Positions 30,466-38,149 of a DNA stretch of 38,149 nucleotides are shown one piece after another (position 1 is the first letter of the stretch; every line of letters starts with the position of its first letter). Source of the DNA: Phycisphaerae bacterium. Lineage in GTDB: Bacteria > Planctomycetota > Phycisphaerae > Phycisphaerales > SM1A02. Where the stretch lies: assembly GCA_002709755.1 (NCBI GenBank), contig PAQN01000058.1, forward strand, positions 1-38,149, written 5' to 3'. Both the position numbers and the translations under genes were made by a program. The notes below the pieces were generated by a model that did not search any database, was not told the origin of the DNA, and worked only from the letters and a program-made list of their open reading frames with translations.

Positions 30466-31728
30466 ATGACCGCTGTCAAGTCCGTTCCGCTTCGTCTCTC
30501 GCAGATATCCTGCTTGCTCTCATTGCTCCTTGCGGCAGAAACGCTTGTTGCTCAGCAGAAGCTCGGTGAGATGCCTCCACTGCCCCAGGCAGCTGATTTC
30601 AGGGAATCGAACGAGTCGACGATCACCTCCTCCGAGCCCAAGGTGTTCGACATGTTCGGTGCGACCATCCGATCCGTGGATCGCGATGGAACTCAAAACA
30701 TGCTGGTCGGTCACTCGAGGGGGGTCTGGGAGCTCTCGCGTGACGAGTCAGGCAAGTGGATGCCGGTGTTTGAGATCAAGGCCCCTGAGTCATGCTCGAA
30801 TCCTGGTACTTTCGGCATGGCCTTCGACGTGGATGGCGACACCGTCGTGCTTCGCCCCGTCGCATTGGGTGACAAGGCTCGGATTCATGTGTTTCGTCAG
30901 ACCGATACCGATACTGGATGGAAGCATGTACAGGACATCACACCCCCGATGTTCCCAGACGGAAGACGATTCGGTCTGAAGGTGACGGCCGGAGATGGTT
31001 GGCTCTGCGCTCATGGCCGGAGTGGTGTGACGGTATTCAAGAAGAATGAAAAGGGCATGTACCTGTTTTCGCAGGTGATCGACTCGGTGGGAGAAAACGA
31101 GGCCGACAGGGATCGTTTTGGAAAGACGATCACAGTCGATGGTGGTCAGATGATCATCAGCTCGTTTCGTGCGACAGGTCGCAATGAGCGCGTTGATGTC
31201 TTTGCATTGAATCCTGAGGGGAAATGGAGGCATGTCCAGGTTCTCGATCCCCCGCACAGAAAATTCGGGACATGGTTCGGTCATGCCCTGGATGTCTCCG
31301 GTGACTGTCTGGTGATCTCCTCACCGCGTTGGCGTGACATGACCGGCCGTGTCGATGTCTACCGTCGGGGTTCCGATGATCTCTGGAAGCACGTGCAGGA
31401 GCTTGCCGTCTATCCAGACAGCCTGAGCTCGTTTGGAACGCAACTGTCACTGGAAAAAGACAATCTGGTCGTCGGAGCTTCGATGCCCAACGTCCCCGGT
31501 TCCGCATACGTGTTCAAAGGGGATTCAGCGGGTCGATTCAAGCGAACCGCGATGGTGGGTCTGCCCGGAAACGAACACATTTCCTCCGGATTCGGTACAG
31601 CCACTCTCGTGCGAGACGGGCAGTTCTACGTCTCGGCTCCATCAGTGGAATCTGGAGGATTCGCCAAGGCCGGTCGCATTTATGAATACGCTTTCCCTCC
31701 GGAATCCCCGTCCGTGGCATCGGAATGA
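30466..31728 (+). CDS. Secreted beta-propeller-like (FG-GAP-type) protein
   Basis: The ATG at 30466 has GAGG 9 nt upstream and opens a signal peptide (SQISCLLSLLLAAETLVAQQ). The protein has 420 residues. Recurrent units alternate a FGxx segment with short beta strands: DMFGATIRSVDRDG, RRFGLKVTAGDGW, DRFGKTITVDGGQ, TWFGHALDVSGD, SSFGTQLSLEKD and SGFGTATLVRDG, each about 55-65 residues apart. Units end in patterns such as RVDVYRRGSDDLWKHVQEL. This is the FG-GAP-like propeller arrangement common in planctomycete secreted proteins. No catalytic motif is seen. It opens the block of exported surface proteins, and its role is unknown. Confidence 0.82.
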   Translation: MTAVKSVPLRLSQISCLLSLLLAAETLVAQQKLGEMPPLPQAADFRESNESTITSSEPKVFDMFGATIRSVDRDGTQNMLVGHSRGVWELSRDESGKWMPVFEIKAPESCSNPGTFGMAFDVDGDTVVLRPVALGDKARIHVFRQTDTDTGWKHVQDITPPMFPDGRRFGLKVTAGDGWLCAHGRSGVTVFKKNEKGMYLFSQVIDSVGENEADRDRFGKTITVDGGQMIISSFRATGRNERVDVFALNPEGKWRHVQVLDPPHRKFGTWFGHALDVSGDCLVISSPRWRDMTGRVDVYRRGSDDLWKHVQELAVYPDSLSSFGTQLSLEKDNLVVGASMPNVPGSAYVFKGDSAGRFKRTAMVGLPGNEHISSGFGTATLVRDGQFYVSAPSVESGGFAKAGRIYEYAFPPESPSVASE

Positions 31729-32220: not shown

Positions 32221-33696
32221 ATGAAGAAAAGCATGATCATCGCCGCAGGTGCGGCATTCATCGTGTCCGGCAGCGTTTTCGCTCAGGATGTGCCCGATCC
32301 CAACCCAGTGCAGAACGCCGATGGCACCTTCACCTGGTACACCGGAAACAACACTCAGTATCCCGTCATCCAGGACGTCCTTGACGCCTGCATGGATGGT
32401 GATGAGATCGTCGTGGTGGCTGGTCAGTACGTCGAAAGCCTCAACCTTAACCGTAACGATGTTTCGCTCCGACCCGCGACTCAGGTGACTGCCGTTGCTG
32501 GTAGCAGCACCGGTGCCATCGAAGATTCATGGCAGGAAGTCATCTTCTGGAACCCCACTGAGGGCTTCAACAACGACAACGGTCACGCCATCCTCGCTGG
32601 TTCCAACACGACCAACACCTACGTTGGACGTCCCCGTGAGTTCAAGCAGCTTGCAAACGGAAGCATCGTGCCCAACACCGCGCCTTTCGCAAACGCAGCC
32701 GGTGGCGCTGAATGGCTTCCCCTGGCAGGTTCGGCTTCAGGTGCAAGCCTGAAGAACATCTGTGATGTTGCTTACACGGGCGCTAGCTCACTCAGCAATG
32801 TTCAGAAGGGCCTCTCCGCAGGCGGCAACTACGGCATGACCTTCTGGTCACGTTCCATCGACGACGTTGCGGTCCGCACCAATGGTTCGAACGCGACTTT
32901 CAACTACTGTGACATGACTGCTCAGAACGGTTTCGGCGGTGGCGTGATGGTCACCGGTGCCACTGACGCAACCTCCTTCGTCGGATGCAGAGTCCGCGAC
33001 ACATGGTCAGGCGGCCAGACTTCCGACGGTCAGCCCGTCCACGCGGTCACCATTGCCGGTGGTCATCCCATGTTCGCTGGTTGCCAGGTCACCATGAACC
33101 AGGGTGGTGCTGATGGCATCATTCGTCACACTGCTGGCGAAGCTTCCTTCACGGCTTGCCTCATCAACTCCAACACCAGCCCCGTCAGCGACGGCATCTA
33201 CAAGGCTGATGGTGGTGCGCACGCGACCTTCGCCGGTTGCACCATCCAGGGCAACACTTCGCGAATGGGTACGCTTTGGTTCGACTCATCCGCCTGCGCG
33301 CAGGACGAGTACATGATGCTCACTGATTGCATCTTCGACACCAACGCCACCATCGACGGTCAGTACGGCGCGACCGCATACTGCACCGACGCAGTCGCTG
33401 GTCGTAGCCCGCTCATCGTCCTCGACCGTTGTGAGATTCACAACAGCAATGGTGGTGGTACCGATTCCGGTTCCATCTGGTACGAGAAGGATGTTGAGTC
33501 CAACTACTTCCCTGATTACCGCATCCTGCGTGACATCAGCAGCGCGACTCTTCTGGCAGACAGCGCCAACCAGAACGGTGCAGTCGGTACCGCCGCCAAC
33601 GAAGGTGGCAGCCTTGACGCCATCGCTGGTGACATCAACGGTGACGGCACCGTCGACGGCATGGACCTTGCCGCACTTCTGGCGAACTGGGGCTGA
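32221..33696 (+). CDS. Secreted parallel-beta-helix surface protein with dockerin-like tail (module B alone)
   Basis: The ATG at 32221 has GGAG 11 nt upstream and begins a textbook signal peptide (MKKSMIIAAGAAFIVSGSVFA). The protein has 491 residues. The mature N-terminus VPDPNPVQNADGTFTWY leads into a YPVIQDVLDACMDGDEIVV segment of the kind that starts pectate-lyase-like helices. Repeated turns follow: FNYCDMTAQNGFGGGVMV, SFVGCRVRDTWSGG, MFAGCQVTMNQGG, TFAGCTIQGNTSRMG. The C-terminus DINGDGTVDGMDLAALLANW is an EF-hand/dockerin-like tail. The codon choice (AAC, ATC, ACC, GGT strongly preferred, more GCT and GTT than neighbours) suggests high expression. The whole mature protein is paralogous to residues 447-905 of the next gene. 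Confidence 0.85.
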   Translation: MKKSMIIAAGAAFIVSGSVFAQDVPDPNPVQNADGTFTWYTGNNTQYPVIQDVLDACMDGDEIVVVAGQYVESLNLNRNDVSLRPATQVTAVAGSSTGAIEDSWQEVIFWNPTEGFNNDNGHAILAGSNTTNTYVGRPREFKQLANGSIVPNTAPFANAAGGAEWLPLAGSASGASLKNICDVAYTGASSLSNVQKGLSAGGNYGMTFWSRSIDDVAVRTNGSNATFNYCDMTAQNGFGGGVMVTGATDATSFVGCRVRDTWSGGQTSDGQPVHAVTIAGGHPMFAGCQVTMNQGGADGIIRHTAGEASFTACLINSNTSPVSDGIYKADGGAHATFAGCTIQGNTSRMGTLWFDSSACAQDEYMMLTDCIFDTNATIDGQYGATAYCTDAVAGRSPLIVLDRCEIHNSNGGGTDSGSIWYEKDVESNYFPDYRILRDISSATLLADSANQNGAVGTAANEGGSLDAIAGDINGDGTVDGMDLAALLANWG

Positions 33697-33723
33697 TCGC
33701 TTCAGTCAGTACACAACACCTTT

Positions 33724-33748
33724 GAATCATGGTGAGGTTTCATGATTC
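33724..33748 (+). repeat. Inverted repeat after the 32221 gene
   Basis: Perfect 8-bp arms GAATCATG (33724-33731) and CATGATTC (33741-33748) with a 9-nt loop, 28 nt after the stop codon. No T-tract follows. It stands directly before the true terminator and could protect the transcript's 3' end. Confidence 0.5.
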
Positions 33749-33766
33749 GAAGTGCTTGAATTGCAT

Positions 33767-33803
33767 GAACCCGTCAAGCCTCGCTTGGCGGGTTCGTGCT
33801 TTT
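33767..33803 (+). terminator. Rho-independent terminator of the 32221 gene
   Basis: Arms at 33767-33778 and 33784-33795 form a 12-bp stem with one U-G wobble in the plus-strand RNA, a 5-nt loop, and a TTTT run at 33800-33803. The wobble would be a mismatch in the other strand, which fixes the orientation as plus. Confidence 0.8.
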
Positions 33804-33844
33804 CCGACCCATTATTGAAGTTTTTCGTTACACACAAGGCAGAG

Positions 33845-36562
33845 ATGTTCATGCCCTATTCCACCGCCATCGTTTCGTTCTTCGTTGCTTGCCTGCTTCA
33901 GTCATTTCTAGAGACTTCAGCTCATGCGCAGGTCCGCATCCAGGGTTCGCCCACGGAGTATCCCACGATCAGTGCCGCGGTTGGAGCAAGTTCGCCCAAT
34001 GATGTCGTCGAAATCGACACGGGAACCTATTACGAATCCGACATCACCATCAGTCATCCTCTGGTCATCAAGGCGGTTCAGGTCAACGCCGACTACCCCC
34101 AGGTCAGGATCGACGCATCCGGCAACGGACGTCATTTTTTCGTTCAGGCAGATTGCACGCTCCTGGGGCTTCGTCTGCGAAAGGGTGATGCCTCTGGTTC
34201 AGCAATCGGTGGTGGTGATGGTGGGGCGATCCTGCATGACGGGGGACTTCTGACTCTCAGGGACTGTATCATTCAGACCAGCTCCGCACAGTCTGGTGGT
34301 GGCATCTCGACGAACGGATCCACCCTGGATCTCGTCAGATCCAAGATTCATTCCTGCACCGCCACCGCGCGCGGTGGCGCCATTCACATGGCGGGTTCGA
34401 CGGTGCAGGCAATAAGCCTTCTGTACCTGACTGATTGCACGATCACAGACAATGACGCCGGAATGGATGGTGGCGGTATCCACATGACCGACAGCACTCT
34501 AAATGCGGTCCGTTCCGAAGTACATGACAACAAATCCTCTGGAGACGGTGGTGGGGTCTGTGTTCTGGGAACGGGCGTGGCTTTGATGACTCCCGTTTTG
34601 AACATGGCGGACTGTGCCATCAGCGGAAATGTCGCCAATGGATCGGGTGGTGGGGTTCATGCCGACAAGGCGACTCTCGATCTCTTTCAGGTGGCGATCG
34701 AATACAACCGATGCGACGGTCCCAGTGGACTTTCACTTGGCGGTGGAATGTACATCGAGCAGACGGCCTGCAAGTCGTCCGAGTGTTCTCTTTCATTCAA
34801 TGAATCAAGCGGTTCCGGTGGGGGCGTGGCCCTGGTGAGGGACTTTGATTTCAATATGCCGCAGCATTTGGTCTCTGAGTTCGAGTCATGCATCTTCCAG
34901 CAGAACGTCGCGGGACTGACCGGGGGTGGACTCGAGATTCGTCTTTCGGGGGTTCCGGTGATCAAGGGCTGTCAGATCTTCGACAACATGGCCTCGAACG
35001 GCGGGGGAGCATTCCACCTGGTGCGACTTCAGCCGGGTTCGAATCCGATGCCGGACATCATGGATACGTTCATCTGCAGCAATTCCGCCTTGCAGATTTT
35101 CTGGAATCTCGGGTCCCAGGGATTCAACGATCTTGGCGGAAACACCATTCTCGAGAATTGCGCGCCGCCCTATGCCGGGGGCGACATTCCAGATCCGAAC
35201 CCGGTTCAGAACGAAGATGGCACCTACACATGGTATGCCGGCAACAACACCCAGTACCCGGTCATCCAGGAAGTGATTGATGCGTGTGATCCCGGTGACG
35301 AAATCGTGATCATGGCAGGCGAATATGTCGAGAGTCTGTCTCTCGACAAGCCGGACATCACGATCCGTCCGGCCACCACCCCTGGCGGGCAAGGGCCTGA
35401 GGCCGGATTCCAGAAGGTCGTCTTCTGGAACCCCACCGAGGGTTTCGAGAACGACAACGGGCATGCCTTCCTGCTCGGTCCGAACACATCCAACACCGTT
35501 GTCGGTCGCCCTCGTGAGTTCACTCAGCTCGCGAATGGCTCGATCGTGCCTACCAGACTTCCGTTTGGTGGCGGAATGGCCAGATCCGAATTCGATCCCG
35601 AAGCGGTCTTTCTGCCAATGTGCAACATCGCCTACACGAATCTCGATTCGATGACCCGCACGCAAAGAGGTCTGGCGGGGTATCTCGGTGACGAGCTCGC
35701 GATCGAGTTCTGGTCACGTTCGATCGATGATTATGCAGTGAGAACGATGAATTCACTGGCGTCGGTGAGTCACTGCAAGATCACATCGCAAAACGGTTTC
35801 GGAGGTGGGCTCTTCGTCGAGGGTGATGATGATGCGACATCCTTCGTCAACTGCAATGTCGTGGACACCTATTCCGGTGGTGTGACGAATGATGGTCATC
35901 CTGTCCATGCAGTGCTGATCCATGGGGGCAATCCCTCCTTTTCGGGCTGTTCCGTCGCTCGCAATACAGCCGGCGTGGGAGGGATCATTCATCAATCCGG
36001 CGGAACCGGTGTGTGGTCCGGATCAGTGATCGGAGGATACAGGTACGACGACATGAACAATGCGCCGGTGTCCGATGGTATCTACGTGATGGTCGATGGG
36101 GCCGCCCCGAGTTTCCATGGCTGCACCTTTCGATGCAATCTGAGTCGTTTCGGAACCGTCTACTTCGATTCATCGGACAACCAGGATCACGAGTTCGTCC
36201 TGTTTTCGGAAACGGCTTTCCTCGAGAACATGACCGTGTCAAGTCAATATGGCGCCGTCGCATGGTGTGTGGACGAACTGCCGGGGCGATCGCCCTTGGT
36301 CGTCTTCGATCTGTGTCGTTGGTTCAACGATCTGAACGACCAGGGAACGGAATCGGGTTCACTGCGCTGGGAGAAGGACGTTCACAGCAACTATTTCCCG
36401 AGTTACAGAATTCTCAGAGACCTCAGTTCTAGTCGGTTGAAAGCAAACGCATCACCCTACGGGGCAGGTGCCTCTGATGGCACGATGACAGCTGATCTCA
36501 ACGGAGATGGCGTGGTGGACGGCGTCGACCTCACGATTCTGCTGGCAACCTGGGGTGGATGA
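33845..36562 (+). CDS. Secreted two-module parallel-beta-helix protein with dockerin-like tail (module A + module B)
   Basis: ATG codons at 33845 and 33851 are both possible. The first has AAGG 5 nt upstream, giving 905 residues. Signal peptide: AIVSFFVACLLQSFLETSAHAQ. Module A (about 28-440) starts VRIQGSPTEYPTISAAVGAS and continues with Gly-rich helix turns such as GGGDGGAILHDGG, SGGGISTNGS, MDGGGIHMTDS, GDGGGVCVLG and GSGGGVHADK, the Chlamydia-polymorphic-protein-like or choice-of-anchor type of right-handed helix. Module B (447-905) starts DIPDPNPVQNEDGTYTWY and matches the whole mature 32221 protein at roughly two of three residues. It ends DLNGDGVVDGVDLTILLATW. No catalytic residues are obvious, so adhesion or structural use is as likely as polysaccharide cleavage. 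Confidence 0.85.
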   Translation: MFMPYSTAIVSFFVACLLQSFLETSAHAQVRIQGSPTEYPTISAAVGASSPNDVVEIDTGTYYESDITISHPLVIKAVQVNADYPQVRIDASGNGRHFFVQADCTLLGLRLRKGDASGSAIGGGDGGAILHDGGLLTLRDCIIQTSSAQSGGGISTNGSTLDLVRSKIHSCTATARGGAIHMAGSTVQAISLLYLTDCTITDNDAGMDGGGIHMTDSTLNAVRSEVHDNKSSGDGGGVCVLGTGVALMTPVLNMADCAISGNVANGSGGGVHADKATLDLFQVAIEYNRCDGPSGLSLGGGMYIEQTACKSSECSLSFNESSGSGGGVALVRDFDFNMPQHLVSEFESCIFQQNVAGLTGGGLEIRLSGVPVIKGCQIFDNMASNGGGAFHLVRLQPGSNPMPDIMDTFICSNSALQIFWNLGSQGFNDLGGNTILENCAPPYAGGDIPDPNPVQNEDGTYTWYAGNNTQYPVIQEVIDACDPGDEIVIMAGEYVESLSLDKPDITIRPATTPGGQGPEAGFQKVVFWNPTEGFENDNGHAFLLGPNTSNTVVGRPREFTQLANGSIVPTRLPFGGGMARSEFDPEAVFLPMCNIAYTNLDSMTRTQRGLAGYLGDELAIEFWSRSIDDYAVRTMNSLASVSHCKITSQNGFGGGLFVEGDDDATSFVNCNVVDTYSGGVTNDGHPVHAVLIHGGNPSFSGCSVARNTAGVGGIIHQSGGTGVWSGSVIGGYRYDDMNNAPVSDGIYVMVDGAAPSFHGCTFRCNLSRFGTVYFDSSDNQDHEFVLFSETAFLENMTVSSQYGAVAWCVDELPGRSPLVVFDLCRWFNDLNDQGTESGSLRWEKDVHSNYFPSYRILRDLSSSRLKANASPYGAGASDGTMTADLNGDGVVDGVDLTILLATWGG

Positions 36563-36586
36563 TCGCTGAATCTTCGGTCTTCATTC

Positions 36587-36606
36587 GACACCCGGACTGT
36601 GGTGTC
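36587..36606 (+). terminator. Weak hairpin after the 33845 gene
   Basis: 6-bp arms GACACC (36587-36592) and GGTGTC (36601-36606), loop of 8 nt, followed by TCTTGTC. It lies 25 nt after the stop codon. Too short for confidence. Confidence 0.3.
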
Positions 36607-36852
36607 TCTTGTCTGCATGCTTCGTGGCGTGGGTGTGTTCGCTTCTCGTTCAAGAGGCTTCTGCCATCGGGCCGGTCGTTGCCGTGTCTTGTCTTGCGAT
36701 CGCGAATTCAAGTCATTCATGCATTGATATTAAATACGCATTATTCGATTAAAGTCCGGAAACTTTAATTTCTCAATTCGCTCATGCGTGGTTTTGGTCA
36801 CGTTGTTTTTTTCTATCCTCGCTGTGTTCACGCATTTTGTCGAGGAGTTCAG
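36607..36852. other. Non-coding spacer with AT-rich stretch and hairpin
   Basis: About 245 nt without a gene. From 36711 to 36780 the sequence is markedly AT-rich and contains an 8-bp inverted repeat ATTAAAGT/ACTTTAAT (36748-36755 and 36762-36769). The block at 36802-36826 resembles the sequence at 32125-32150 upstream of the 32221 gene, with a TATCCT at 36814-36819. Confidence 0.4.
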
Positions 36853-37020
36853 ATGAACACGTACGTGACCAACCAGGCCGAATTACTTGTCGCACGCCCA
36901 GCACTCTCTTTCGGATTTGCGGCCTGTCCTGTTGCAAGTCTCGGTGTGATTGCGCGCACACAGATCATGCGTCACCCCGATTCTTCTGGCTGCCTTGTGG
37001 AGGTGGTTCGGGCGTGCTGA
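36853..37020 (+). CDS. Possible small protein (55 residues) with strong ribosome-binding site
   Basis: The ATG at 36853 is preceded by GAGGAG (36842-36847) with a 5-nt spacer, one of the best Shine-Dalgarno sites in this half of the window. Its upstream block resembles that of the 32221 gene. The peptide MNTYVTNQAELLVARPALSF and so on has no signal peptide or recognisable motif and ends REVVRAC-like (EVVRAC). It could be a real small protein, a leader peptide for the 37116 gene, or the stub of a lost paralogue. I cannot tell which. Confidence 0.3.
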   Translation: MNTYVTNQAELLVARPALSFGFAACPVASLGVIARTQIMRHPDSSGCLVEVVRAC

Positions 37021-37115
37021 CGAGGCGATGTTCGTTTTCGCCGTCCTGTGTGTTGTGCCTTGTTTGTCTTTTTCGCTTCGAATGAATCGTTCTAAGAAAT
37101 CAGAGAAATTCAGAG

Positions 37116-38149
37116 ATGTTCATGAACTTTCCAAGCACCGTCCTTTCGTTTCTCGTCGCCTGTCTTCTTCAGTCACTGATGTTGACCTCCGCGCACGGTC
37201 AGGTCCGCATTCAGGGCTCCGCCGTCGAGTATTCAACGATCAGTGCGGCCGTCAGTGCGAGTTCGTCAGGCGATGTCATCGAGGTCGACTCGGGGGTCTA
37301 CTACGAATCCGGCATCACCATCAGTCATCCACTGCAGATCAGGGCGGTCCAGATCATCTCGAATCAACCGCAGGTCACGATCGATGCGTCCGGCATGGGC
37401 CGTCATTTTCTGGTCCAGGCCGATTGCACGCTCGAGGGACTGCATCTTCGAAATGGCGACGTCTCCGGCACGGGTGATGGTGGAGCGATCCTGCATGACT
37501 CCGGTGCACTCGTCCTGAACGACTGCGTCGTCGAGTCCAGTGCTGCGAATTCTGGTGGTGGCATCGCCGGGAAAGGTGGCGATCTGACACTGGTCAGATC
37601 ACAGGTCTTCTCATGCAACGCCAGCATTGACGGCGGCGGCATTCACGTGGGTGGTGCGTCATCTCAATCACAGCCCACCGGCACTTTCGTCGAGTCGGGC
37701 CAGGCACTCGGAAACGCCAACAGCTGGTCAGTCGCCCTCGGCGACGTCGACGGCGACGGTGATCTCGATGCCGTGGTTGCGGCTATTAGCCAGCCCACTT
37801 ACCTCTGGATCAATGATGGTACCGGCATCTTCACAAACTCCGGACAGCAACTCGAAAACAGCAACTGCACCTCAGTCGCCCTCGGCGACGTCGACGGCGA
37901 CGGCGACCTCGATGCCATGATCGCGAACGAAGGTTTTCCCAACACCCTCTTGATCAACGACGGCGCCTGCATCTTTACCGACTCCGGACAGTCACTCGGA
38001 AACCCAGGTTCCACCGCGAGCAAGTCAGTCGCCCTCGGCGACCTCGACGGCGACGGCGACCTCGATGCCACTTTTGCGAACGCGCTCGGCGATCTCAATA
38101 CCGTCTGGACCAACGACGGCAACGGCATCTTCACCGACTCCGGACATAC
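37116..38149 (+). CDS. Secreted module A / FG-GAP repeat protein (3' end outside window)
   Basis: The frame is open from ATG 37116 (second ATG at 37122) to the window edge, at least 344 residues. The leader CAGAGATGTTCATG is the same as in the 33845 gene. Signal peptide: TVLSFLVACLLQSLMLTSAHGQ. Residues about 30-186 are a close paralogue of the start of module A in the 33845 protein (VRIQGSAVEYSTISAAVSAS, GRHFLVQADCTLEGL, DGGAILHDSG). At GGGIHVGGASSQ (about 178-186) homology stops, and from residue 188 FG-GAP/VCBS-like repeats take over, each with SVALGDVDGDGDLDA. The DGDGD loops are probable Ca2+ sites. The product is a chimera of the two fold types found in its neighbours. Likely surface-exposed, function unknown. 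Confidence 0.8.
   Translation, partial: MFMNFPSTVLSFLVACLLQSLMLTSAHGQVRIQGSAVEYSTISAAVSASSSGDVIEVDSGVYYESGITISHPLQIRAVQIISNQPQVTIDASGMGRHFLVQADCTLEGLHLRNGDVSGTGDGGAILHDSGALVLNDCVVESSAANSGGGIAGKGGDLTLVRSQVFSCNASIDGGGIHVGGASSQSQPTGTFVESGQALGNANSWSVALGDVDGDGDLDAVVAAISQPTYLWINDGTGIFTNSGQQLENSNCTSVALGDVDGDGDLDAMIANEGFPNTLLINDGACIFTDSGQSLGNPGSTASKSVALGDLDGDGDLDATFANALGDLNTVWTNDGNGIFTDSGH
37677..38149 (+). repeat. Tandem FG-GAP coding repeats of 144 and 153 bp
   Basis: Three full units and the start of a fourth. The conserved core (TCAGTCGCCCTCGGCGAC and following to GATGCC) occurs at 37728-37772, 37872-37916 and 38025-38069, nearly identical in DNA. The spacing is 144 bp and then 153 bp, that is 48 and 51 codons. 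High DNA identity in a coding repeat points to recent duplication or gene conversion. The array continues past the window edge. Confidence 0.85.

Follow-up and report, generated by a model that had tools for sequence, protein, structure and literature searches.

A hypothetical 'planctosome' of dockerin-tailed exoproteins has been described for freshwater Planctomycetes (PMC6461901). The locus reported here is also to be compared with the beta-helix exoproteins of Pfam Beta_helix (PF13229; NosD/pectate-lyase fold), which have the same fold and repeat pattern as its products, and with the FG-GAP/VCBS beta-propeller proteins (PF13517), which share with one of its products, p3, 48-residue calcium-loop repeats and end strands as in closed propellers. 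The locus is very probably a four-gene tandem array of secreted, dockerin-tailed beta-helix genes, built by duplication of one module (B), fusion of a second (A), insertion of a propeller and exchange of segments between copies. Searches of the open-access literature on FG-GAP, dockerin and beta-helix proteins in Planctomycetes turned up no account of such an architecture.

Modules of the array and their predicted fold

The window, that is, the whole stretch of DNA that was analysed, is the complete contig C58 (38149 bp) from the draft genome of a marine planctomycete (G000; 2.62 Mb in 59 contigs). A gene for an FG-GAP_2 secreted protein (FG2, 30466..31728; Pfam PF14312, E 1e-12) lies 5′ of the array and, like the array genes that follow it on C58, is on the + strand. 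The first of these, p1 (32221..33696), encodes 491 aa comprising a signal peptide, module B (a predicted right-handed beta-helix) and a one-loop dockerin-like tail. The second, p2 (33845..36562), encodes a signal peptide, module A (beta-helix; about residues 29-445, 33929..35179, from alignment to p3 and to the sister species), module B (residues 446-905, 35180..36559) and a one-loop dockerin-like tail. An earlier note had read p1 as module B and p2 as module A followed by a complete module B, and the module alignments bear this out: residues 23-491 of p1 align to residues 447-904 of p2 with 52% identity (E 5e-166), and module B of p2 is 52-56% identical to p1 and to a copy on contig C15. The third gene, p3 (37116..38149), opens with the start of module A (residues 1-185, 37116..37670; 62% identity to residues 1-189 of p2, E 3e-74, and about 70% in DNA over 563 bp), continues through a junction (GASSQS/QPTGTF, 37671..37685) and then consists of FG-GAP repeats (37686..38149; PF13517 FG-GAP_3, E 1e-19) with three calcium loops and the beginning of a fourth repeat. 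The composition given for p3 in the earlier note, an A start and then FG-GAP, holds for this part, but the gene is not finished, as the right end of C58 falls within its repeats. The module joints are as sharp as had been claimed, at residue 445/446 of p2 and residues 185-189 of p3. The likeness also claimed near the start codons of p2 and p3 extends to CAGAGATGTTCATG only, with no upstream similarity above shuffles, and promoter and terminator scans likewise gave nothing above shuffles. Similarity at the module level far exceeds that of generic beta-helices, module-A matches outside the genus falling to about 30-36% identity among 181 genomes of the family.

AlphaFold2 models of p1 (pLDDT 77) and p2 (pLDDT 73) show successive short strands, forming a beta-helix in p1 and two beta-helix domains in p2, and the top Foldseek matches are beta-helices; both modules are predicted to be right-handed beta-helices. 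PF13229 is matched by 11 of the 31 B members, p1 and p2 being unmatched at E 0.1, and a PDB sequence search with a B profile returned dockerin tails and one calmodulin only. The site equivalent to the A/FG-GAP junction of p3 falls, in the p2 model, in a loop between beta-helix strands E180-183 and E191-196.

The Foldseek matches include polysaccharide lyases, esterases, tailspikes and one adhesin, with low TM-scores. One reading takes the array proteins for catalytic polysaccharide lyases of the PL6-like double beta-helix kind, their genes multiplied to exploit glycans; it would be compatible with the evolutionary account given below. In its favor, p2 matched PL6 alginate lyases at E ~1e-8, and p1 matched RbmB, a pectate lyase and a pectin methylesterase; however, with TM-scores of about 0.2-0.38, a poor superposition (about 0.2) and no enzyme family, lyases included, named by Pfam or NCBIfam models for the array proteins, it seems rather unlikely from the predicted models. 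The reading preferred here is that the array proteins are secreted, putative glycan-binding or glycan-processing exoproteins, whose role would be extracellular glycan binding or processing. An adhesion role is possible.

The predicted propeller of p3 and its probable continuation on C15

Four contig ends of G000 stop in FG-GAP repeats, with 5′ parts on C58 and C42 and 3′ parts on C15 and C31. On C15 a single open frame leads from four FG-GAP repeats (PF13517, E 1e-36) into a beta-helix stretch about 95 residues long that carries a generic C-terminal cap, and on through GGDIPDPNPVQ to module B in full and a tail; among the FG-GAP-ended contigs, a beta-helix end followed by B was found on C15 only. 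Downstream are a B-only gene, a convergent gene for an M12B metalloprotease with a dockerin tail, and a gene for a ZnuA-type protein. G002 and G003, of the same genus, have an empty site, in which the CrtI gene of C58 directly precedes the gene at C15 6637-9906 with no array between them. In G052, of another genus, one block (L078) holds an FG-GAP_2 gene, B genes, a terminal B gene (54.7% identical to that of C15) and a metalloprotease gene, FG2 thus being kept together with the array, as it is also a kept neighbour in the sister species G001 (L077). The synteny in G002, G003 and G052 places C15 after C58 in the array order. The facing ends of the two contigs have no exact overlap and, since no read or contig bridges them, we infer the contiguity of the two. 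The missing portion of p3 most likely sits on C15 (L042:8281 down to 5963, − strand), and the order would be FG2, p1 (B), p2 (AB), p3 (A, FG-GAP, helix end, B), B and metalloprotease. The earlier note had pointed past the right edge for further members, and the array indeed has four genes rather than three, the fourth being on C15 if the contigs adjoin. p3 is almost certainly composed of an A start, an FG-GAP propeller, a beta-helix end and B, a propeller nested in a beta-helix protein; this architecture is known from one genome. The beta-helix end on C15 is weakly alike to the A end of p2 (about 30% identity) and may derive from another beta-helix gene.

Domain content and synteny speak against C31 as the partner of C58 and against C42 as the partner of C15. 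The ends of C42 (L043:3-410, − strand) and C31 (L046:2057-2857, − strand) fit one stand-alone FG-GAP gene with a TSP3-like and dockerin-like end, a possible source of the p3 insert. The ZnuA-type gene that adjoins the array in G000 (L042:780-1757) adjoins other genes of the left of the window in G002 and G003, and has therefore moved.

The calcium loops of p3 (D-x-D-x-DG) are regularly spaced (48-51). With three repeats and a partial one on C58 and four on C15, p3 plus C15 would have at least eight, the contig gap splitting the region; a complete FG-GAP protein in the same genome has seven calcium loops. The first FG-GAP strand (GTFVE) and the last (NVVWLN) appear to be in phase to close one blade, and a closed propeller fold is predicted. 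Such closure would bring the propeller ends together and would therefore suit insertion in a loop. An assembler could have produced the chimera by crossing from module A into the FG-GAP repeat of another gene, as such repeats are present in several genes and at four contig ends. Nevertheless, the junction at 37671 has at most 19 bp of exact sharing with any other FG-GAP region examined (k-mer test negative), and a repeat-induced chimera is therefore unlikely; exact FG sharing is longest for C58 against C15, at 53 bp; the second junction, back to beta-helix, is present on C15; and similar in-frame inserts occur in another genome, G002. An assembly artefact is considered highly improbable, and a genuinely nested propeller is the reading retained.

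In G002 the same FG family was found inside a metalloprotease domain (C71, L127:2898-5477, − strand), with TTWHND before the insert and GDTYMENLEW after it. The host domain is putatively M43-type, to judge from its HEIGHYLGLFHTF motif; more than 25 homologues in the bacterial family have the corresponding site, TW.ND-Y..SL.W, uninterrupted. The N-terminus of the same gene begins with the signal peptide of a stand-alone FG gene and part of one repeat. The same cassette recurs at two further G002 loci (L128:3295-6990 and L126:2-3211), in one arrangement following a signal peptide and preceding a beta-helix, in the other following a beta-helix and preceding a two-loop dockerin tail. The FG repeats of G002 have up to 65 bp of exact sharing between contigs, which makes these examples provisional, though no longer repeat spans the protease junctions.

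To judge from the sequences, FG-GAP appears to be a promiscuous in-frame cassette in this genus. It is tentatively proposed that the propeller might be transferred by short-homology recombination (e.g. at W-x-N-D) in the same repeat phase, with repeated insertion at permissive loops of unrelated extracellular domains. Since one propeller family is nested repeatedly, even in a protease domain, domain insertion by recombination becomes testable within one genus.

Ancestry and exchange between copies

Among 45 genera of the family, several carry module B in tandem, with 2-5 genes per array, and every array read outside this genus has B alone. Given these B-only arrays and the resemblance of the p1 signal peptide to those of the G052 B genes, B alone is likely the ancestral form and A an addition; the A fusion and the propeller insert would be lineage additions. 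Close relatives of module A were found in G000 and G001 only (single-cell genome AG-333-L23, sister species), the latter being the single result of a contig scan of genomes for relatives. G001 keeps the order CrtI, FG2, p1 and p2 start, with amino-acid identities to G000 of 96, 87, 86 and 78%, respectively, and its contig stops before p3. Within the G052 array, a B gene (C78, L078:6710-8326, − strand) has an in-frame TGA and is likely a decaying copy or a sequencing error.

The duplication and exchange of parts proposed in the earlier note find support in the tandem B arrays of several genera, a within-gene mosaic and an A part younger than B. In the whole-B tree the B of p3 groups with p1 (99/98) and that of p2 falls outside, yet the A start of p3 is p2-like. 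In windows along B, p3 is nearer p2 up to about residue 220 and nearer p1 beyond (about 67-77% vs 43-54%). MaxChi reached the permutation floor (p 5e-5) with a break at residues 225-239 of p1 (32893..32937, + strand), the mosaic breakpoint that is also drawn from half-trees; it fired as well on the control p1/G052_1/p3, and rate variation therefore plays some part. The C-half tree united p1, G001 and p3 (100/98) and p2+p3 was rejected (AU p 0.0046), while in the N-half tree p2+p3 was favoured at 87/90 with the alternative standing (p-AU 0.068). A mosaic module B in p3, p2-like in its N-half and p1-like in its C-half, is supported by these alignments and trees. Synonymous divergence (pS) between p2 and p3 was 0.51 (0.42-0.60) in the A start and 0.68 (0.62-0.74) in B, the intervals being separate, and by this measure the A part of p3 appears younger than its B part. 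The p1/p3 exchange is older than the species split, since p3 falls outside p1+G001. The exchange among the array copies is domain shuffling of an old and slow kind.

The array, flanked by the gene of an FG-GAP_2 exoprotein on one side and by that of an M12B-type metalloprotease on the other, would have been assembled as follows. Module B alone would be the ancestral unit, multiplying in tandem. Within this genus, a further beta-helix (A), bringing its own signal peptide, would have become fused N-terminal to B, and one copy would have gained an FG-GAP propeller, inserted in frame into a loop of its module A. Segments would also have passed between copies: p1 and p3 would have exchanged the C-half of B, and p2 and p3 the A start.

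Between G000 and G001, dN/dS was 0.05 for CrtI, 0.19 for FG2, 0.38 for p1 and 0.34 for the p2 start, so that the array is evolving faster than its neighbours, yet under purifying selection. Surface variation and phage escape had been suggested earlier. A locus in which rapid module swaps change surface antigens and evade phage or grazers would fit the mosaic genes and a purifying selection weaker than the neighbour's (omega 0.34-0.38 vs 0.05 for CrtI) but is scarcely credible, since AG-333-L23 preserves the order of p1 and the p2 start as well as the genes ahead of them, the p1/p3 exchange is older than the sister-species split, identical DNA tracts between array paralogs reach no more than 20 bp outside the FG repeats, silent donor cassettes gave no sign and omega across the gene is below 1. 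Slow shuffling is the account kept here, and what looks like a hotspot of module swapping can be both old and stable. The series B, A+B, and A with nested propeller + B, for which sister-species and outgroup references exist, shows how large multidomain Planctomycetes exoproteins arise.

Dockerin-like tails and comparison with known systems

The tails in p1, in p2 and in the gene on C15 are one-loop versions that fall below the Pfam cut-off for dockerin; two-loop versions are present in G025-type relatives. About 56 dockerin-type tail matches were found in the G000 genome (92% complete), which gave no match to cohesin (PF00963) at E 0.01. A cohesin-dockerin complex was rejected, cohesin not having been found. 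With about 56 tails and no cohesin, a role as a general tag for the surface or for sorting seems likelier for the one-loop tail than one in a cellulosome.

The planctosome (PMC6461901) is a loose parallel, G000 sharing with it dockerin-like tails, a tailed M12B reprolysin adjoining the array and TSP3 repeats elsewhere. G000 differs from both cellulosome and planctosome in being without a cohesin match and in having array tails of one loop, not two. Compared with the PF13229 exoproteins, module B is set apart by a conserved block at its N-terminus (PDPNPV..DGT..WYVGNNTQYPVIQDVLDA), belongs to no named family and occurs in tandem arrays. Finally, p3 differs from FG-GAP/VCBS proteins in that its propeller is inserted in other secreted domains, with at least eight repeats expected against seven in the complete relative from the same genome.
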